Positions 942 to 19,263 are shown, numbered from the stretch's first letter. The stretch: 44,973 nucleotides of DNA from a virus (IMGVR_UViG_3300018080_002027:1-44973), one strand, 5' to 3'. Notes: generated by a model from the letters alone, not told the origin. Program-made: numbers and translations.

Positions 942-1541
942 TCATATCGGCGGCTTGAGCGGCTGAACTAAGTTCACCAGCTCGGTACGGAGCGACATCT
1001 CATCGCGAAAGCGACCATACATCGCCGACGTCGTCGTCGTCGCATCGCTCTTGACACCGCGCATCATCATGCACAGATGACGGCCGCGAGCGATCACGGC
1101 AACGTCGCTTGAGTCGGTCGCATTGATTACGCCTTGGGCGATCTCTTGTCCGAGCCGCTCTTGTATCTGGAGTCGCGCAGCTCTTCGCTTTGCGATGCGT
1201 ACAAGCTTCGAAAGACCGATGAGCTGATCACTTGCAAGATATGCGATCGTAAGATCGCACCAGAACGGGAGAAGATGATGCTCGCACATAGACCAGATTT
1301 CAACGCCGCTCACGACGACAAGCTGATCGACGTGCGTCGTCGAAAACGTCTTCTCCGCTCTGGCTGGCACATCGATCGTCGTGAACTCACGCCAGAATCG
1401 CGCGACTCGGCTCGGCGTCTCGATGAGACCTTCGCGACTCGGATCTTCGCCGATCGCTTCGAGCATCGAGTGAACGGCGAGTTCAAGCGATACGCGACGG
1501 CCGTCAGCGATGAATGCCGACGTCGCCGCGCGTCGCGCCAT
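942..1541 (-). CDS. folE: GTP cyclohydrolase I
   Basis: Converts GTP to 7,8-dihydroneopterin triphosphate, the substrate of QueD and first step towards preQ0. The 199-residue protein has the family motifs in order: GEDPSREGL...TPSRV at about 31-46, the zinc/active-site CEHH at 86-89, a GLSK segment then RLQIQERL, and the second zinc Cys in CMMMRG near the C-terminus. The ATG at 1541 gives a normal length; there is no stop just upstream in frame, but the QueE stop lies 17 bases before it. It is the last biosynthetic gene of the queuosine-type cluster, so a role in base modification is more likely than folate supply. Confidence 0.95.
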   Translation of the reverse strand: MARRAATSAFIADGRRVSLELAVHSMLEAIGEDPSREGLIETPSRVARFWREFTTIDVPARAEKTFSTTHVDQLVVVSGVEIWSMCEHHLLPFWCDLTIAYLASDQLIGLSKLVRIAKRRAARLQIQERLGQEIAQGVINATDSSDVAVIARGRHLCMMMRGVKSDATTTTSAMYGRFRDEMSLRTELVNLVQPLKPPI

Positions 1542-1558
1542 TTCGTCGCAGTCGCCGC

Positions 1559-2191
1559 CTATCGGAGACCGAGCAGCTTGTGCGCCTGCATCCCCAGACG
1601 ATATGGCGGCGTCTGTTTTGCGAGTGTCAGACAATGTTCGACGTCCTCCTTCGTATATGGCCAAGCCGGCAAGACATACCAGAACGACGCGTTCAAGCCT
1701 GTCACGTCTGGATCCGGTAAACCGGCGAAGTGATCGTTCGCGTGTCGTACGATCTTGACTTCGTCAGCGTACCACACTTGCAGCTCGCCGAACGACGTCT
1801 TCGGCGAGACCGTCACCCAATTCGGGCCGGCGCAAAGCGGTAGGGTGCCGTTCGTCTCGACGGCGACGCGCTGCGTCAAGCGGAACGCTCTCGCGACGAG
1901 CTGCTCGTCGAGCTGGAGCATCGGCTCGCCGCCAGTAAAGACGACAAGCGGGAATCGACGCTTCGTCTTCTCGTACGGCCCAAAGATCTCGTCTGACGTC
2001 ATCACGATCGCCGTCGAGTGATCGGTATCGCAATCAAAGCTGGCCGGTCCATCTCGCTTACAGTCGAGATTACAACCGGCAAAGCGAATAAAGAGCGCCG
2101 GCGTGCCGACGAGAGCGCCTTCGCCTTGAATCGACTCGAAGATCTCGTTCACGCGATACCGCTTGTCGATGTCAGACTTGACTCGGCTCAT
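1559..2191 (-). CDS. queE: 7-carboxy-7-deazaguanine synthase
   Basis: Radical-SAM enzyme turning 6-carboxytetrahydropterin into 7-carboxy-7-deazaguanine. The 210 residues start with the family signature IFESIQGEG, then AGCNLDC, a third Cys in FDCDTD, the SAM-binding TGGEP near residue 87 and a SPKTSF segment. Cysteines fall at about 40, 44 and 54, that is CX3CX9C, unlike the usual radical-SAM CX3CX2C; QueE enzymes are known to vary here. Its start overlaps the QueD stop by 20 bases, so the two are co-translated. Confidence 0.93.
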   Translation of the reverse strand: MSRVKSDIDKRYRVNEIFESIQGEGALVGTPALFIRFAGCNLDCKRDGPASFDCDTDHSTAIVMTSDEIFGPYEKTKRRFPLVVFTGGEPMLQLDEQLVARAFRLTQRVAVETNGTLPLCAGPNWVTVSPKTSFGELQVWYADEVKIVRHANDHFAGLPDPDVTGLNASFWYVLPAWPYTKEDVEHCLTLAKQTPPYRLGMQAHKLLGLR

Positions 2192-2579
2192 ACTTGACGC
2201 TCGATCCTGGTCCTTCGTGTACCGTGACCGACTTCAGAGAGCATATCAGAGCCGGTACGAGCTTGGAAGAAATCACATCGATTCTCGTGAACAGCGCAAT
2301 CGCGATCATCTCAGCCGTCGGCGGAATGTCATGCTCGCAAAACGGCGCACAGTCGTTTAAGTCGCGATGATCGTACTCGTCGATCGCTTCTCTGAGAATC
2401 GACTTCAAGTTCGCAAAATCTTCGATCATGCCACGTCGGGAGCCGGCGTCGATTGCGATCTTCGCCGTCCATTCGACTTCGACTCGCCAGCGATGACCGT
2501 GAACGCGCTGACACTTGCCGACGTACTCGGGCAAGTGATGCGCCGCGTCGAACGCGTGTTCGACTTTGATCGTGTACAT
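2172..2579 (-). CDS. queD: 6-carboxy-5,6,7,8-tetrahydropterin synthase
   Basis: Second step of preQ0 synthesis, acting on dihydroneopterin triphosphate. The 135-residue protein has zinc ligands H14/H15 and the HGH at 27-29, catalytic C23 in the CQRVHGH motif, the DHRDLND segment, PTAE and a final HEGPGSS region with the conserved Glu. AAGGAGG stands 7 bases before the ATG, and the start overlaps the stop of the upstream small membrane protein (TGATG). In phages this enzyme normally travels with QueC and QueE, as here. Confidence 0.94.
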   Translation of the reverse strand: MYTIKVEHAFDAAHHLPEYVGKCQRVHGHRWRVEVEWTAKIAIDAGSRRGMIEDFANLKSILREAIDEYDHRDLNDCAPFCEHDIPPTAEMIAIALFTRIDVISSKLVPALICSLKSVTVHEGPGSSVKYEPSQV

Positions 2580-2761
2580 CAGTCGACCTCCTTCGACGGA
2601 CCGAGTACCAATAGGCAAAAACACAACACGAGCGAGAGACCCATCGCGCCGATCGCATATCGACCGACGTCGTCAAGTTCGAAGACGGCCGCGACGATAC
2701 CGATCATGCCAGCGAGACAGCCGACAACAAACACTAACGTTCCAATCGCTTGCATGCGCAT
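2579..2761 (-). CDS. Small two-helix membrane protein in que cluster
   Basis: 60 residues with two transmembrane helices (about 5-27 and 34-54) and short charged ends. It is translationally tied to both neighbours: its start overlaps the DpdA stop (TGATG) and its stop overlaps the QueD start in the same way. AAGGAG lies upstream. No family recognised. Its place inside a tight modification operon could mean a linked role, for example precursor transport or host membrane change, or simple hitch-hiking; the sequence does not decide. Confidence 0.7.
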   Translation of the reverse strand: MRMQAIGTLVFVVGCLAGMIGIVAAVFELDDVGRYAIGAMGLSLVLCFCLLVLGPSKEVD

Positions 2762-3534
2762 CAGTCGCACTCCTTGAGCGTTTCGCTCCATCTTTGCTTC
2801 GCTCGCCGTTCGAGTCGAAGGTAATGCGCCGCGACCATCGACAGATCCAGGCCGTACGGCCGAATCGGCAACGTCTTCGCGCCGAAGTTCTGAAAGCGAC
2901 CATATACGACCGGCCCGACGTTCCACGAGAAGGAGTCGACGGTATGCCATGGGACAGAGAGAACGAGATCTTCGCTCGTAATTCCGAAGCCGTGAACGCG
3001 CTTCGGCCAGATCTTCGAGAAGCACGCCGAAATCCAGTCGCGCATGATGTTGCGTGCGACCTTGAAGCCGGTCAGATCGCCAAGTGCGACCTTCTCGTGA
3101 TCTTTCGCCATACCGACGAGCACGTCTTCGGGACTGCCGAAGTGAAACGCGGGGATCGCATCGATGCCGGCCTTCGTGATTTGTTTGAAATTGTAGGCGC
3201 TCGCCTTCCAATCACCGATGACGTCGAGCGTATAGATCTCACTCGGTGGCTCTTCTCGGTCTCGCATGCGCTTCGCAAACTCGATGTATGTTTCGAGCGA
3301 TAGACCGGCACGCGCAGCCGCTTGTGAGTTCGCGACACTGAACGCGCCAGAATCAAGCACCCACTCGCGATAGCTCAGCTCGGGGAAGATCGGCAAGTAC
3401 ATCTCGGCATATACGAACGTCGTCATCAATGCCGGCGATACTAGCTCGCCGCCAATGTCGATCGGCTCAGCGAACGTGCGTCGATACTGATCGCGCTTCG
3501 AGCTTCCCGAGATGCCGAGATACACCGTCGTCAC
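2761..3534 (-). CDS. dpdA: DpdA-like DNA guanine transglycosylase
   Basis: Expected to swap guanine in DNA for a 7-deazaguanine base; relative of tRNA-guanine transglycosylase. The 257-residue protein has the TGT/DpdA-type DSGAFS at 61-66, LDVIGD at 103-108, an HGFGI segment at 181-185 and VDSFSW at 199-204 with the likely nucleophile D200. It is near the short length typical of phage DpdA. The GTG start at 3534 overlaps the stop of the RMF-like gene by 4 bases and is preceded by GAGG. A tRNA enzyme is the alternative, but length and the DSFSW motif favour the DNA enzyme. Confidence 0.9.
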   Translation of the reverse strand: MTTVYLGISGSSKRDQYRRTFAEPIDIGGELVSPALMTTFVYAEMYLPIFPELSYREWVLDSGAFSVANSQAAARAGLSLETYIEFAKRMRDREEPPSEIYTLDVIGDWKASAYNFKQITKAGIDAIPAFHFGSPEDVLVGMAKDHEKVALGDLTGFKVARNIMRDWISACFSKIWPKRVHGFGITSEDLVLSVPWHTVDSFSWNVGPVVYGRFQNFGAKTLPIRPYGLDLSMVAAHYLRLERRAKQRWSETLKECD

Positions 3535-3737
3535 GACTTGGTCACCTCATCACGGCCCGCGAGCCATCCATCTTTCCACGCGCGGAGAAAACCGCGCGCG
3601 AACGTCACGTGTCCCCGCACTGTTTTTTTGTCTTCGTACGGACACGACGAAATAGATCGACCGGCTTGACCGGCGAGCCGACCGATCTCGTATACGTGCC
3701 TGAACGGCCCTCTCCAAGCCACCGCTTTCTCCATCAT
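3531..3737 (-). CDS. RMF-like small protein
   Basis: 68 residues. The core GRLAGQAGRS...CPY followed by a FLRAWKDGWLAG tail closely matches ribosome modulation factor (GYQAGIAGRS...CPY...WLGGWREA). RMF dimerises and inactivates 70S ribosomes; RMF-family proteins also occur on phages and plasmids. Here it lies between QueC and DpdA with 4-base overlaps at both ends (ATGATG with the QueC stop, GTGA with the DpdA start). It may act on host ribosomes, bind nucleic acid, or help the modification enzymes; only the family resemblance is visible. Confidence 0.8.
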   Translation of the reverse strand: MMEKAVAWRGPFRHVYEIGRLAGQAGRSISSCPYEDKKTVRGHVTFARGFLRAWKDGWLAGRDEVTKS

Positions 3738-4417
3738 TCCAAGTACGCCGTGCGATCAGTAACGCCGGCTTCAATGAACGCCTTGCGGCGCTCTCGGCAC
3801 GTCGCGCAGCGACCACACTGCGCGGCGCTGCCTTGATAGCAGCTCCAAGTGAGTTCAAGCGGCGCGTCGAGCGTCACGGCACGCTGAACGATCATCGCCT
3901 TTGTGAGCTTAATGAACGGCGCATCGAGTATGACATCGCGACGGTCAATCTCAAGCATCGTACGGCTGAGCAGCTCGCAGAACCGCGACGAGCAATCGGC
4001 GTATCCGACAGCGCCGTCGCCGGCATGAGCACCGATCGCGACGTACAGCGTGTCGCCATCTTTGTCGAACGGCATCGAGAGACCGATCGACGCAGCGAGC
4101 ATCACGAAGAGACCGTTCCGAGCCGGCACGGTCATTGCATCGATGACGTCGGGAGAATACGGCGCGAGCGGCACGTCGATCGCCGGATCCGTCAATGCCG
4201 AGCCACCCAAAAACGGCGATAGCGCTTCGAGCGAGATCTCGTACTGTTCGACGTCGAACCGACGAGCGATATGCCGCGCCGCTTCTAGCTCAACGGCGTG
4301 TCGCTGGACATAGTTCACGCTGAGCGCGGTGACGTGACCGCCGAACGTCTTGACGTAGTACGCGAGCAGCGCCGTCGAGTCGACGCCGCCAGAGAAGAGC
4401 ACAATCGCGCGGTCCAT
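3734..4417 (-). CDS. queC: 7-cyano-7-deazaguanine (preQ0) synthase
   Basis: ATP-dependent enzyme making preQ0 from 7-carboxy-7-deazaguanine and ammonia. 227 residues: the PP-loop SGGVDS at 9-14, then a C-terminal zinc site with four Cys (SCYQG...QCGRCATC). Length is normal for the family. The start overlaps the stop of the upstream lipoprotein gene (TGATG) after GAGGACG. First enzyme gene transcribed in the cluster. Confidence 0.95.
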   Translation of the reverse strand: MDRAIVLFSGGVDSTALLAYYVKTFGGHVTALSVNYVQRHAVELEAARHIARRFDVEQYEISLEALSPFLGGSALTDPAIDVPLAPYSPDVIDAMTVPARNGLFVMLAASIGLSMPFDKDGDTLYVAIGAHAGDGAVGYADCSSRFCELLSRTMLEIDRRDVILDAPFIKLTKAMIVQRAVTLDAPLELTWSCYQGSAAQCGRCATCRERRKAFIEAGVTDRTAYLE

Positions 4418-4866: not shown

Positions 4867-5586
4867 TTACTCTTCGGCGAAGAGCCAGTCCTCAAGAACG
4901 GCCGCGATCACAGTCGCGTCGTCGATGCCGGTCTCGACCATGCCGAGAAGTCGACGCGCTTTCTTTAGCATCGGCTGAACTTCGACCCACTCACGCGCAG
5001 CAAACGGTACGAGTCGACCGCCTGGCGGTGTCGAGATCGCCGGCCGCTCGCCGGCTTGCGATGCTATGTTGCCGAGCGACTTGCTTTTGAACTTATCGGG
5101 ATCCCAATTCAGCCGCAACATGATCGCGATCTCCGCATCGCTGAAGCCGATCTCGTCGGTATCGACTTCGTGCTTTGCGAACCGCGTGAACAAGAGCGAG
5201 AGCTTCTCAAAGTCCCAGTCGCCGCGCTCCACGAGTCGATTATCAGCGACGGCGTACGCGTGACGCTCATCGTCGTTCGGAAACGACACGCCGCGAACGA
5301 CTGGAACGAGCCAGTCGCCGCGATCGTACTCGATGCGCTTCGGCGGCTCGGCCGGCTTACTCGCTTTCATCGTCTTGAGCGCTTCGAGCCGGCCGTGTCC
5401 GCATACGATCTCGCCGCTCACCTCATCTCGCAAGACCGGCAAGACAAAGCCGAACCGCTCGTACGAGCCGATGATCTTCGCGATGTCGTGCGCTTTGGGA
5501 TTGTCTGGCCACTCTCGAAGAGACGAGAGCGGCATCAGTTCGAGACTCCACGAGATGTTCTCCGAACGCTCGGCGTCGTTCGACAT
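4867..5586 (-). CDS. ParB/Srx-like nuclease-domain protein
   Basis: 239 residues. The N-terminal 140 carry the ParB N-terminal domain pattern: LREWPDNPKAH, RFGFVLPVL, the nucleotide-binding GHGRLEAL and YAVADNRL. The C-terminal part is not recognised and contains DDATVIAAVLED near its end. Phage members of this family occur alone or with methyltransferases and can act as CTPases or nucleases. It begins a new unit after the terminator at 5635-5668; the ATG lacks a clear Shine-Dalgarno sequence, so the exact start is less sure. Confidence 0.8.
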   Translation of the reverse strand: MSNDAERSENISWSLELMPLSSLREWPDNPKAHDIAKIIGSYERFGFVLPVLRDEVSGEIVCGHGRLEALKTMKASKPAEPPKRIEYDRGDWLVPVVRGVSFPNDDERHAYAVADNRLVERGDWDFEKLSLLFTRFAKHEVDTDEIGFSDAEIAIMLRLNWDPDKFKSKSLGNIASQAGERPAISTPPGGRLVPFAAREWVEVQPMLKKARRLLGMVETGIDDATVIAAVLEDWLFAEE

Positions 5587-5634: not shown

Positions 5635-5668
5635 ATAAAAGCGGCGAGCAGTCAAGACCGCTCGCCGC
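5635..5668 (-). terminator. Intrinsic terminator
   Basis: A perfect 9-bp stem (GCGGCGAGC at 5641-5649 with GCTCGCCGC at 5660-5668, 10-base loop), followed on the minus strand by TTTTATT. It lies just downstream of the acidic protein gene (5691-6035) and ahead of the ParB-like gene, and would separate the replication-region transcript from the que cluster. Confidence 0.85.
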
Positions 5669-5690
5669 TCATCGACCAAGAGTTCGACGA

Positions 5691-15571: not shown

Positions 15572-17050
15572 TCAGCTCTCCTTCGTTGCTCGCCGCTTCG
15601 CGTCGTCGAGTACGCTCTCGACGATCTCTCGTCGCTTCGCGAGTGCGGCGCATATTGTCGAGTCGACCGTCGACTCGGCGATCAGATGGACGACCGTCGT
15701 GCGGCTTTCTTGACCTGGCCGGCGAAGCCGACCGATCGCTTGATAGTACTGACCAAGCGACCATCCGCACGAGAAAAAGACGCAGTAGTTCGACCGGAGC
15801 TGAAGACCGTCGACGCCTTCGCTACCGGTCCCGATCTGCACGGCGAGCACTGGCGCGGCTCGTCGTGTTCGCTCTTCGCTCTTGTCGCGATCATCAAAGC
15901 CGTCACAATGATCGAGCCACTCGTCGAGCGATTTGTGACGGCCGCTCAGCTCGTACGCTGCTCGACACGCTCGCGCCGCCGCTCCCTTGATCTCGTCGAG
16001 ATCGTGATGGAAGCGCGCGAAGACGACGACCGGCTCTTCGGCCGGCACGTCGTCGAGCAGCTCGACAAGCGCTTCGGTCTTCTCATCACTCGTAACACGA
16101 AGCCGAACGCCGCCGGCCGGAAGCTCGTCTTCATCGAGCAAGACAAAGCCGTTCGCGATCTGCGACAGACGGAGCAGCTTGACGAGTGCGTTCGACGCTG
16201 TGATCACGCCGTCGTCGACGAGTGCACAGAACTCGCGATCGACTTCGTCGTACAGCTTGCGAGACTTTGGCGACAGCGCGAACCGCCGCTCGGTATGCGT
16301 CGCTTTCGGCAAGTCCGGTAAGACGTCGTCGAGCGTCACGCGACTCGCGATGGAATAGAAAAGCGCCTGAAGCTCTTCGAGATTCTTGAATCCCAAGACC
16401 TGTCGGTTCTCGAAGCCGCCCATCACGGCGTACCGAGCGCGAAAGCGCACGAAGCTCCAGCCGAAGACGTTTGGATCCAGAAAACGAAATTGAGCCCAGA
16501 CGTCGAGCGGCGAATGCGGCATCGGCGTCCCTGACAGACCGACGCGACGATCAGCTTGCCGAGCCAGCGCGCCGAAAAATCTCGACGCGATACCGCACGG
16601 CGACTTGATTCGATGGATCTCGTCACATGCGATCAGATGCCAGCGAACCGACGTTAGTACTGACGCGAGCGGCTTTCTCCACGCCGCGTCATAATTCACG
16701 AGCACGACGAGCGGCCGACCGAAATGCGCTTGGCGATTGATCTCGCTCTTGAGTTTGTCGGCACGCTTTGTGACCGGCTTGTCGCCGAGCGGCAAGATCT
16801 CAACGTCGAGATCTGGCGCGAAGCGAGCGAACTGCGCCGGCCAGACCGATACGACCGCTTTGGGACAAGCGATCAAGATGCGAGCCGGCTCGCCGTCGAA
16901 CGTGCGCTTCACGTACTCGACGATCGGCCGGCTCTTACCGCTGCCCATGTCCCACGCGAGATACGTCGCCGGATTGGCGCCGATCGCTTCGACGCCGAGC
17001 CGCTCTTGATGCTCCCAGATCGGTTCGATGTCGACGACGTTACTCGCCAT
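15572..17050 (-). CDS. SNF2-family SF2 helicase
   Basis: 492 residues. DNA translocase/helicase with motif I DMGSGKS near 34-40, motif Ia IACPKAVV, motif II DEIH near 143, motif III LSGTP, motif V GSEGVDGLQL and motif VI QAIGRLRRPGQ. Phage members of this family sit in replication modules and may remodel forks or partner with primases. GGAGG precedes the ATG, which lies within the QueF stop region (11-base overlap), so this helicase and QueF are translated together. Confidence 0.95.
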   Translation of the reverse strand: MASNVVDIEPIWEHQERLGVEAIGANPATYLAWDMGSGKSRPIVEYVKRTFDGEPARILIACPKAVVSVWPAQFARFAPDLDVEILPLGDKPVTKRADKLKSEINRQAHFGRPLVVLVNYDAAWRKPLASVLTSVRWHLIACDEIHRIKSPCGIASRFFGALARQADRRVGLSGTPMPHSPLDVWAQFRFLDPNVFGWSFVRFRARYAVMGGFENRQVLGFKNLEELQALFYSIASRVTLDDVLPDLPKATHTERRFALSPKSRKLYDEVDREFCALVDDGVITASNALVKLLRLSQIANGFVLLDEDELPAGGVRLRVTSDEKTEALVELLDDVPAEEPVVVFARFHHDLDEIKGAAARACRAAYELSGRHKSLDEWLDHCDGFDDRDKSEERTRRAAPVLAVQIGTGSEGVDGLQLRSNYCVFFSCGWSLGQYYQAIGRLRRPGQESRTTVVHLIAESTVDSTICAALAKRREIVESVLDDAKRRATKES

Positions 17051-17438
17051 GATGCGCTACCTCCTTCTCCCAGTGCGACGCCGTAACGACTGAGCGCATG
17101 CCGCCGCGCGGCGTCCACTGCGCCTTGACCGTCATACGACGCGGTCGGAGCAAGAGAACAAGATCGTCGAGTATCTTGTTCGTGATCTCTTCGTAGTACG
17201 CGCCGTGATTTCGGAAGCTCTGAAGATAGAACTTCAAGCTCTTCAGCTCAACGCAACGCATCGACGGCGCATACGTGATTGTAATCGTGCCGAAATCGGG
17301 ATGACCTGTCTTCGGGCAGATCGACGTGAACTCCGGCTGAACGTGCTCGATCTCGTACAATTTGCCGGCCGCTGGATTCGCGAACGTCTCGAACGTCTCG
17401 AAGCGCTGCTCGTCGGTAAGATCATCAAGAACAGGCAT
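17040..17438 (-). CDS. queF: preQ0 reductase
   Basis: NADPH-dependent reduction of the preQ0 nitrile to the aminomethyl group of preQ1. The 132-residue, single-domain form has the catalytic C41 and D48 (FTSICPKTGHPDF), the QueF motif ELKSLK at 64-69, and the downstream NHGAYYEE with its conserved His and Glu. The QueF motif argues for the reductase, not the archaeosine-forming QueF-like amidinotransferase. AAAGGAGAAGCCG precedes the ATG. It is 13 kb from the other que genes, between a Lar-like protein and the SNF2 helicase. Confidence 0.93.
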   Translation of the reverse strand: MPVLDDLTDEQRFETFETFANPAAGKLYEIEHVQPEFTSICPKTGHPDFGTITITYAPSMRCVELKSLKFYLQSFRNHGAYYEEITNKILDDLVLLLRPRRMTVKAQWTPRGGMRSVVTASHWEKEVAHHGE

Positions 17439-17790
17439 CGGCTTCTCCTTTCTTTGCGAGCTGTCGCTTCAAGTCGACGGCGACGCTTCTCGCTCTTGCG
17501 AGTTCGGTCTTTACCTCGACCGCAATCTCGCGAGCATTGATCAGCGATTGGGCGAGATCTCGCTCAGTGCGCGTCGCTGGCCGATGAGCAGATGTCTCAA
17601 TATCGACGATCGCGTTCCATATCGTGACAAGCGTCTCGCCGATCGTCGTAAACGGTACGCGAAGCGACCGTCTGCATTCGACGCAGTAGATCGCCGGCTG
17701 ATAATACTCGTCGACGACGCGCGGCGCCGAGCCGCACGTCGGACACGCGGCAAGCTTCTCCGCGAGTTCTTTCAAGTACACGTCAGACAT
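17425..17790 (-). CDS. Lar-like zinc-ribbon protein
   Basis: 121 residues. ACPTCGSAPRV, YCVECR and a following TIWNAIVD match the pattern of phage Lar-family restriction alleviation proteins (CPxCG...CxxC...A...WN). Known Lar modulates host type I restriction and modification. The C-terminal half is a coiled coil not usual in Lar. AGGAGTCGATACA precedes the ATG. It overlaps QueF by 14 bases, putting two possible anti-restriction genes together. Confidence 0.65.
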   Translation of the reverse strand: MSDVYLKELAEKLAACPTCGSAPRVVDEYYQPAIYCVECRRSLRVPFTTIGETLVTIWNAIVDIETSAHRPATRTERDLAQSLINAREIAVEVKTELARARSVAVDLKRQLAKKGEADACS

Positions 17791-17824
17791 TGTATCGACT
17801 CCTGAGATGAAGATGGTCGCCGCC

Positions 17825-17857
17825 GTCGGCTCGGCGCTTGCGAGCAACCGAGCCGAC
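17825..17857. repeat. Long intergenic hairpin
   Basis: Perfect 10-bp stem GTCGGCTCGG/CCGAGCCGAC, with a second small stem inside the loop (TTGC/GCAA). It lies between the DUF932-like stop and the Lar-like gene. No T-tract follows on the minus strand, so an RNA-processing or attenuation role is more likely than simple termination. Confidence 0.65.
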
Positions 17858-17879: not shown

Positions 17880-19103
17880 CTATGCGGCGACGACGGCCGG
17901 CGATGCGATGATCTTGCCAGCAACGTCTTCGAGACCAGACGCGACGTCAGGATCATCGTGATCCTGAGCGTGCCGAGCGACAGCTTGAGAGAGACCGAAC
18001 GCGGTCCGATCGTAGTCGCTCAGAAAGTGTTCGAGTATCGCGTCCTTGCTGTCTTCGGTCAGATCATTCGCTTTGACGACATGCTCGACGGCGATCTTCG
18101 GCGATTCGATCTCAACGCTTGCCGCCGACTTGCACTTCGCGACGATCGCCTTGAATCGCTCGGGATCGAACGCGCCGCGAACGGCGTCGCGCGCCCTCGC
18201 GTACACGGCTCTCGATTCGAGCGCCTTCGTCTCGTCGCTATACAAGCCGACGTCGAGTTTTCCGCCGAGATGCACCTTCGCGAGCACGTCTTCGACGGTC
18301 GCGAGATTGAAGCATATCCCACACATGATACCGAGACGCACGTCGAAGCCGCCGTGACCTGTCTCGCTGTTCGAGATCGTGACTGACGGAAAGACCGTGC
18401 CGGGACCGCCGGGAAGTTCGCCTTCGCTCTTAGCGCCGACCTTCGAGAGATACTCCGGCGAGCCGAGCCCGCCGATGTACCAGTTCCCCGCCTTGTCACG
18501 ACGCGCGTCGATCGCGTCGAAGAGCTGCCGCGAGATGAGCTTGATCTTCATCGAACGATCGCTCAGCGACGCTTCGAGCACTTCGCCGCCGTTCTTGCGA
18601 GCGACGTCGAGACACTCGAACGCGACGTCGTAGTGATCGAGCACGCGATACGAGTTCGACAAAACGGCGCGAACCTGATCGTCAAGCGCTCGCACGAGCC
18701 AGCGCTTTGGCTTGTCGACCATCAGACCGCCGAGCAAGTCTTCGGCGCGGTACGGCCGAAGCTTCAAGAGCTGATCCCAAAACGGCGCGGGGATCTTCGG
18801 CTCAACGCGTGCGCAGATCTGACGAACCGCTTGCGGCTTCATCGGCAAGCCGTGCTCGCCGAGAAGCTCCTTCTCTTGTGCGCCGTTCGGCATGAGCATC
18901 ACACCATGACCAAGAGTCGACGACTCTGATCCCTGATCGACGCGCACTAGAACCGACGGCCGCATTGAACGCGAGTCGGCGACGAAGTCGAGCTTCGTCT
19001 CTTTCTGGCGTTCGAGTTCAGCGACCATCTCGGCGAGACGGCCGCGCCCCTTCCACTGAGAGCTGCCATACTCTCCCACAATGTTTTCGTTATCTTGACT
19101 CAT
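17880..19103 (-). CDS. DUF932-family phage/plasmid protein
   Basis: 407 residues. The centre (LLVDKPKRWLVRALDDQVRAVLSNSYRVLDHYDV type segment, then FPSVTISNSETGHGG and GIMCGICFNL) matches the DUF932 family common on phages and conjugative plasmids; its biochemical role is not established, though it often lies with recombination and ssDNA genes. GAGGAG is 7 bases before ATG 19103 (another ATG is adjacent). First gene of the unit that includes Lar-like, QueF and SNF2. Confidence 0.8.
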   Translation of the reverse strand: MSQDNENIVGEYGSSQWKGRGRLAEMVAELERQKETKLDFVADSRSMRPSVLVRVDQGSESSTLGHGVMLMPNGAQEKELLGEHGLPMKPQAVRQICARVEPKIPAPFWDQLLKLRPYRAEDLLGGLMVDKPKRWLVRALDDQVRAVLSNSYRVLDHYDVAFECLDVARKNGGEVLEASLSDRSMKIKLISRQLFDAIDARRDKAGNWYIGGLGSPEYLSKVGAKSEGELPGGPGTVFPSVTISNSETGHGGFDVRLGIMCGICFNLATVEDVLAKVHLGGKLDVGLYSDETKALESRAVYARARDAVRGAFDPERFKAIVAKCKSAASVEIESPKIAVEHVVKANDLTEDSKDAILEHFLSDYDRTAFGLSQAVARHAQDHDDPDVASGLEDVAGKIIASPAVVAA

Positions 19104-19124
19104 CATCACGCTCCTCGATGCGAC

Positions 19125-19168
19125 AAAAAAAGACCGAGACCGCTCGACGCGTGTCGAGTCAATCTCGG
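19125..19168 (-). terminator. Intrinsic terminator
   Basis: On the minus strand a stem of CCGAGA/TCTCGG with an inner CTCGAC/GTCGAG stem is followed by TTTTTTT (complement of 19125-19131). It ends transcription coming from the 19264-20523 gene. Confidence 0.85.
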
Positions 19169-19263
19169 CCATTGAATACGCTTCGGGATTCTCATCAGCT
19201 CACGCTCTCTTGTTCGATGCTTCGGTGCTTCGGTGCGCATTATCGCCGATCTGAGCGAAACCG

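Follow-up and report, generated by a model that had tools for sequence, protein, structure and literature searches.

Which modified base does a phage place in its DNA when the genes needed to make it are spread over its genome? The question is raised by the IMG/VR record IMGVR_UViG_3300018080_002027, which is 44,973 bases long and listed as linear (hereafter the window), and in which the genes for FolE, QueE, QueD, DpdA and QueC form one operon on the minus strand, at positions 942 to 4417. The original prediction, made from the sequence alone, had described this operon as a complete pathway to 7-cyano-7-deazaguanine (preQ0), with overlapping starts and stops and intact catalytic motifs, and had expected the phage to exchange guanine in its DNA for 7-deazaguanines. 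Pfam and PHROG matches bear out the position, order and identity of the five genes, and profile searches, a tree and a PDB sequence match for DpdA agree with the expectation that some G is replaced. The pathway itself extends further, since a QueF encoded 13 kb away would convert preQ0 into 7-aminomethyl-7-deazaguanine (preQ1). We consider it probable that this phage makes preQ1 and inserts it into its own DNA, as deoxy-preQ1 (dPreQ1).

DpdA groups by sequence with the DNA enzymes of phages

The predicted DpdA has 257 residues and carries the motifs LDSGAF, LDVIGD, VHGFG and VDSFSW. Residues D61, D104, H181 and D200 are invariant across the phage DpdAs aligned, the invariant Gly positions are likewise kept, and the zinc site (CxCxxC) of tRNA-guanine transglycosylase (tRNA-TGT) is absent. 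A profile of its clade recovered every tested phage DpdA, including those of phages 9g and Dp-1, at E ≤ 3e-20, while eight tRNA-TGTs gave E > 1, and the reverse search with a TGT profile failed to recover the DpdAs. A maximum-likelihood tree splits TGT from DpdA with a support of 100/100, and the sole relevant PDB sequence match is 7ui4, a 'DNA-guanine transglycosylase'. Judged from profiles, tree and this match, DpdA thus groups with the phage DNA enzymes and not with tRNA-TGT. In the tree, its own clade unites it with 23 DpdAs, all from uncultivated viral contigs and none from an isolate, with a support of only 80/74. An alignment-based scan of viral contigs detected relatives, a single-sequence scan with the window DpdA having returned none.

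With regard to its type, H181 is invariant in an alignment that includes 9g, and tblastn relates the protein to the 9g DpdA (E 1e-11), which, in the choice between DpdA1 and DpdA2, points to DpdA1, with H181 equated by alignment to His 196 of the 9g-type enzyme (PMC6884629). The structural comparison with tRNA-TGT that accompanied the original prediction was carried out: the model is a TGT-type barrel (predicted local distance difference test score, pLDDT, 86.9), but the fold alone does not separate DNA from tRNA enzymes, as the best Foldseek matches in the PDB are tRNA-TGTs with a template modelling score of about 0.5. The best viral matches of the model are DpdA-type proteins of phages, either uncharacterised or annotated as queuine-ribosyltransferases.

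Many viral contigs (L011, L020, L032, L042, L088, L008 and others), as well as Microbacterium phage Megan, carry a second dpdA gene in tandem with the first or close to it; the pairs could possibly encode heterodimers or enzymes with different substrates. Two relatives have an S-adenosylmethionine (SAM)-methyltransferase-like gene between dpdA and queD (L011:8681-9550 and L013:1186-2001), and no QueC profile match was found in the locus; they may convert the QueE product into another 7-deazaguanine.

A distant QueF and the predicted base

FolE, QueD, QueE and QueC are all encoded, as in the preQ1-branch phages (Hutinet 2019 group 1). Of a QueF or an amidotransferase, the window encodes the former, a QueF-II in an open reading frame (ORF) of 132 residues, matched over its full length, for which the PHROG label 'GTP cyclohydrolase' is misleading. 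In alignment, this protein has the catalytic Cys, the Asp and the ELKSLK motif in common with the QueFs of Dp-1 and HVTV-1; the roles of these residues and of His96 are those general to the QueF family. It is 47.5% identical to the Dp-1 protein. In the DNA of Dp-1 and of HVTV-1, both of which encode a QueF of this kind, dPreQ1 was measured and no deoxy-preQ0 (dPreQ0) (PMC6884629). Therefore, the likeliest base is dPreQ1, and not the dPreQ0 that would be predicted from the operon alone. The genes for preQ0 are indeed all present, as originally predicted, but they are not the whole set, QueF-II being expected to carry preQ0 on to preQ1.

Cellulophaga phage phiSM likewise combines queF with ParB-like, dpdA and que genes, and the set is found close to the cassette in several viral contigs (for example L028, L031, L032 and L034). 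Many related records gave weaker matches to QueF (E 1e-4 to 1e-7), which were dismissed as cross-matches of FolE.

Proposed pathway

Starting from the gene identities, operon layout, DpdA grouping and ParB linkage observed here, and taking the enzyme activities, the order of steps, the base and the protection from homologous phages (PMC6884629), we propose the following route. FolE would convert GTP into dihydroneopterin triphosphate, from which QueD and QueE would produce 7-carboxy-7-deazaguanine (CDG), to be turned into preQ0 by QueC and reduced to preQ1 by QueF. DpdA would then exchange G for the 7-deazaguanine base in finished, replicated DNA, through a covalent Asp (D200) mechanism like that of tRNA-TGT, probably with the help of the adjacent protein of ParB/sulfiredoxin (Srx) fold, acting as a DNA-bound nucleoside triphosphatase (NTPase) partner in the manner of bacterial DpdB. 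The product, dPreQ1 with possibly some dPreQ0, would confer resistance at many restriction sites, and probably hides the DNA from host restriction enzymes. The DNA of HVTV-1, modified mainly with dPreQ1, resisted every enzyme tested (PMC6884629).

Alternative readings

Several observations weigh against this route. DpdA carries an Asp (D153) at a position that is G in almost every relative, the second Gly of the GG motif is missing from it, and the cysteine spacing of QueE is odd. The original prediction, in describing all motifs as intact, goes too far for QueE (CX3CX9C), and D153 qualifies it for DpdA. QueF has a Tyr in place of the active-site His96 of B. subtilis, the His being likewise absent from the HVTV-1 and phiSM proteins. 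Furthermore, queF lies 13 kb from the operon, which makes co-expression or matching timing a presumption; and the share of G found as dPreQ1 differs greatly among phages (1.7% in Dp-1, 30% in HVTV-1).

The separate position of queF would suit DNA containing mainly dPreQ0, with DpdA taking preQ0 before QueF acts, and QueF serving elsewhere or being expressed at another time. The operon alone equals the minimal dPreQ0 set of Rosebush and CAjan (PMC6884629), and the 9g DpdA is able to insert preQ0 in E. coli. Yet the QueF match is strong and complete, and both QueF-carrying viruses whose DNA was measured had dPreQ1 and no dPreQ0, which leaves this outcome unlikely, though not negligible. We hold it to be considerably more improbable that QueF is instead a QueF-L amidinotransferase, with deoxyarchaeosine (dG+) as the base: similarity alone hardly tells phage QueF from QueF-L (PMC6884629) and His96 is replaced by Tyr, but the protein exceeds the cut-off of the QueF-II (preQ1 synthase) equivalog model, and its ELKSLK motif resembles the one in QueFs of viruses with dPreQ1 in their DNA. 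The preferred reading is also favoured by QueC, which is without the amidotransferase domain that gives dG+. A Gat-QueC identity was rejected for this 227-residue protein, in which no Gat (glutamine amidotransferase) domain is present.

Two other explanations would dispense with DNA modification altogether. The genes might boost the supply of preQ1 for queuosine in host tRNA, as QueF and preQ1 form the bacterial tRNA-Q branch and some phages have Q genes without DpdA (PMC6884629); this seems slightly less credible still, given that the operon includes, in translational coupling, a DpdA with all catalytic Asp residues, dissimilar to tRNA-TGT and devoid of its zinc site. Least probable is a cassette that has decayed or fallen silent in this virus. 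The G153D change in DpdA and the QueE cysteines speak for decay, but every frame is open and the coupling is tight, and the CX3CX9C spacing recurs in seven other viral que operons. Insertion of preQ1 into the phage's own DNA remains the reading that we prefer, and dPreQ1 the most likely base.

A ParB-fold neighbour of DpdA

The operon's first gene codes for a ParB-like protein whose model (pLDDT 81.4) finds ParB/Noc as top Foldseek matches (E 3e-5), with a weaker similarity to sulfiredoxin, in agreement with a ParB/Srx fold. Among 69 non-redundant viral loci, 40 have a match to the ParB profile within 1 kb of dpdA on the same strand, against two matches in 664 kb elsewhere; the profile was built from dpdA neighbours, and these counts cover this subfamily and not all ParB proteins. 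The adjacency of the two genes is far above background. The ParB-like gene directly precedes dpdA in Finch, Sonali and Quesadilla, lies one gene before it in Rinkes, and directly follows it in phiSM.

The bacterial Dpd system includes DpdB, a ParB-like ATPase (PMC12839542), and ORF1 of mycobacteriophage CRB2 has been proposed as a DpdB homologue (PMC6392294). Because of these precedents and the linkage, the protein is likely a DpdB-like helper of DpdA. More tentatively, and with less expectation of being right than wrong, one may imagine a phage 'DpdAB' machine, in which a small ParB/Srx-fold NTPase would be the dedicated and widespread partner that loads DpdA on DNA and sets the choice or density of sites, accompanied here by a third QueE cysteine architecture (CX3CX9C) and an Rmf-like accessory protein.

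Cassettes with ParB, dpdA and que genes were also seen in ten loci labelled as Streptomyces, Actinomadura, Kutzneria, Gordonia, Kibdelosporangium and Actinocrispum genomes (L110, L116, L119, L121, L122, L126, L131, L132, L134 and L135); most of them have no QueC match within 8 kb, and they may be prophages or host islands.

The operon and its genomic setting

Read along the minus strand, the gene order is ParB-like, an ORF of 143 residues, QueC, an Rmf/CrpP-like ORF, DpdA, a membrane ORF, QueD, QueE and FolE (Table 1). From the 143-residue ORF through QueE, every start touches or overlaps the preceding stop, in line with the overlaps originally described. The queC ATG, at 4417, overlaps the stop of the 143-residue ORF, the ATG of the Rmf-like ORF overlaps the queC stop, and the dpdA GTG that of the Rmf-like ORF; downstream, the dpdA stop is overlapped by the ATG of the membrane ORF, whose own stop is overlapped by the queD ATG, and queE starts within queD. 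For folE, two starts are conceivable, a 5' TTG that lies within queE and an ATG some 18 nt beyond it. The couplings on both sides of dpdA are thus provided by the two small ORFs, which the first reading had overlooked together with the ParB-like first gene and the QueF at 17 kb. A motif search in the set of related loci scanned found no equivalent of the Rmf/CrpP-like protein.

Table 1. Predicted features of the cassette and of the queF region, in window coordinates.
Feature	Position	Strand	Evidence and remarks
FolE, GTP cyclohydrolase I	942..1664 (alternative ATG start 1541)	-	Pfam PF01227 E 2.5e-54; NF006826 above cut-off; CEHHLLPF motif
QueE, radical SAM CDG synthase, non-standard CX3CX9C	1559..2191	-	PHROG 2076 E 8.7e-26; alignments
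QueD, 6-carboxytetrahydropterin synthase	2172..2579	-	Pfam PTPS E 5e-29; CxxxHGH motif; ATG on upstream ORF stop
Two-helix membrane ORF, 60 aa	2579..2761	-	TGATG overlaps both sides (dpdA, queD); hydropathy peaks 2.7 and 2.3
DpdA, predicted DNA-guanine transglycosylase	2761..3534	-	PHROG 887 (E 3.8e-21)/7068; catalytic Asp conserved; TIM-barrel model; tree
Rmf/CrpP-like protein, 68 aa, coupled between queC and dpdA	3531..3737	-	NCBIfam NF041886 28.8 bits (cut-off 28); Pfam RMF 25.5 bits, below cut-off 27.9
QueC, preQ0 synthase, without glutamine amidotransferase domain	3734..4417	-	Pfam QueC E 6.9e-48; SGGVDS and CxxCxxC motifs
ORF, 143 aa	4417..4848	-	No family match (Pfam, PHROG, NCBIfam); stop overlaps queC start
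ParB/sulfiredoxin-fold protein, first gene of operon, candidate DpdB-like partner	4867..5586	-	PHROG 620 E 3.1e-27
Terminator-like hairpin	5639..5670	-	14 pairs; divides operon from upstream gene; consensus match only
QueF-II, preQ1 synthase	17040..17438	-	NCBIfam TIGR03139 E 5.9e-46, 155 bits (cut-off 86.9); B. subtilis QueF 4f8b E 1.8e-28
Lar-like zinc-finger ORF	17425..17847	-	Directly upstream of queF; Pfam Lar_restr_allev 22.9 bits, below cut-off 28.6; association only

The QueE cysteines (C40, C44 and C54) follow neither canonical spacing, CX3CX2C or CX14CX2C; the best NCBIfam model, TIGR04508 (CX14CX2C QueE), gave 121.6 bits, below its cut-off of 240. The other features (QGEG, GGEP and ETNGT) are kept. 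All eight isolate-phage QueEs aligned have CX3CX2C, while a scan for the exact CX3CX9C pattern matched seven other viral contigs, in each case a QueE in a que operon, and there was no match in 396 genomes of one bacterial phylum; the remaining relatives vary in the length of the loop between the second and third cysteines. Because the three cysteines are retained, an active QueE appears plausible.

The convincing genes of the window lie on the minus strand, with helicases and a primase at 7-17 kb and terminase, portal, head protease, scaffold and major head protein genes at 36-45 kb. The window is an uncultivated tailed phage, a virus of bacteria, and its positions 1-25000 have no near DNA relative among 50,697 phage records. 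Kinship of the whole phage with its DpdA neighbours was rejected, as portal and terminase similarity was found only with L013 and L017. The cassette behaves as a portable module among otherwise unrelated phages; G001 and G006 have it in common with the window, G006 sharing in addition one DUF932-like candidate. This candidate, a protein of 430 residues at 17880-19172 (PHROG 1362) that looks DUF932-like, occurs in G006 (L164:5331-6620), L024 and L068. The Lar-like ORF beside queF is possibly a second anti-restriction gene.

Host assignment was unsuccessful, the closest non-viral matches being a Chloroflexi metagenome-assembled genome (MAG) and an Acidobacteria MAG contig; among 396 genomes of the Acidobacteria phylum, only 2 have a match to the clade profile. 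In an Acidobacteria MAG contig of 204 kb (L107), a possible prophage and host clue, ParB, dpdA and que genes of the window's clade form a full cassette, its QueC match being weak.

Comparison with known systems

Streptococcus phage Dp-1 (Hutinet 2019 group 1), in which dPreQ1 was measured, has the same set of FolE, QueD, QueE, QueC, QueF and DpdA. However, its queF opens the operon, a QueT transporter is present and no ParB gene is annotated there, whereas a ParB-like gene heads the operon of the window and queF lies apart. Cellulophaga phage phiSM resembles the window in having FolE, QueF, DpdA with an adjacent ParB-like protein, QueC, QueD and QueE, but the proteins are distant, the gene order differs and its DpdA stands elsewhere in the tree. 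In Mycobacterium phages of the Rosebush/Quesadilla/CRB2 type, the ParB-like gene directly precedes dpdA and the preQ0 genes follow (ParB-dpdA-queC-queD-queE-folE), while in the window queC precedes dpdA and small ORFs intervene; most of these cassettes show no QueF, and dPreQ0 was measured in Rosebush, Rinkes having a QueF-like gene. Escherichia phages 9g and CAjan (Queuovirinae) share with the window a DpdA1-type enzyme with the conserved His and the preQ0 genes, but 9g has a Gat-QueC (dG+) and no adjacent ParB, and the identity in DpdA is about 22-32%.

The bacterial Dpd defence island (DpdA, the ParB-like ATPase DpdB, DpdC and others) likewise combines DpdA with a neighbour of the ParB superfamily. 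Unlike that island, the window has no DpdC, restriction or nuclease genes beside dpdA, the cassette's neighbours being replication and structural genes, and PADLOC gave no Dpd match for the cassette proteins or for the ParB-like proteins of four other phages.

Implications

The cassette is largely ordinary among 7-deazaguanine phages, to which it adds an uncultivated clade of DpdA. The CX3CX9C QueE offers a clean test case for the flexibility of the radical-SAM cluster loop, and the strong linkage of ParB-like genes with dpdA provides a testable partner for phage DpdA. Predicting the base needs the whole phage genome and not the operon alone, as a single distant queF shifts the prediction from dPreQ0 to dPreQ1.

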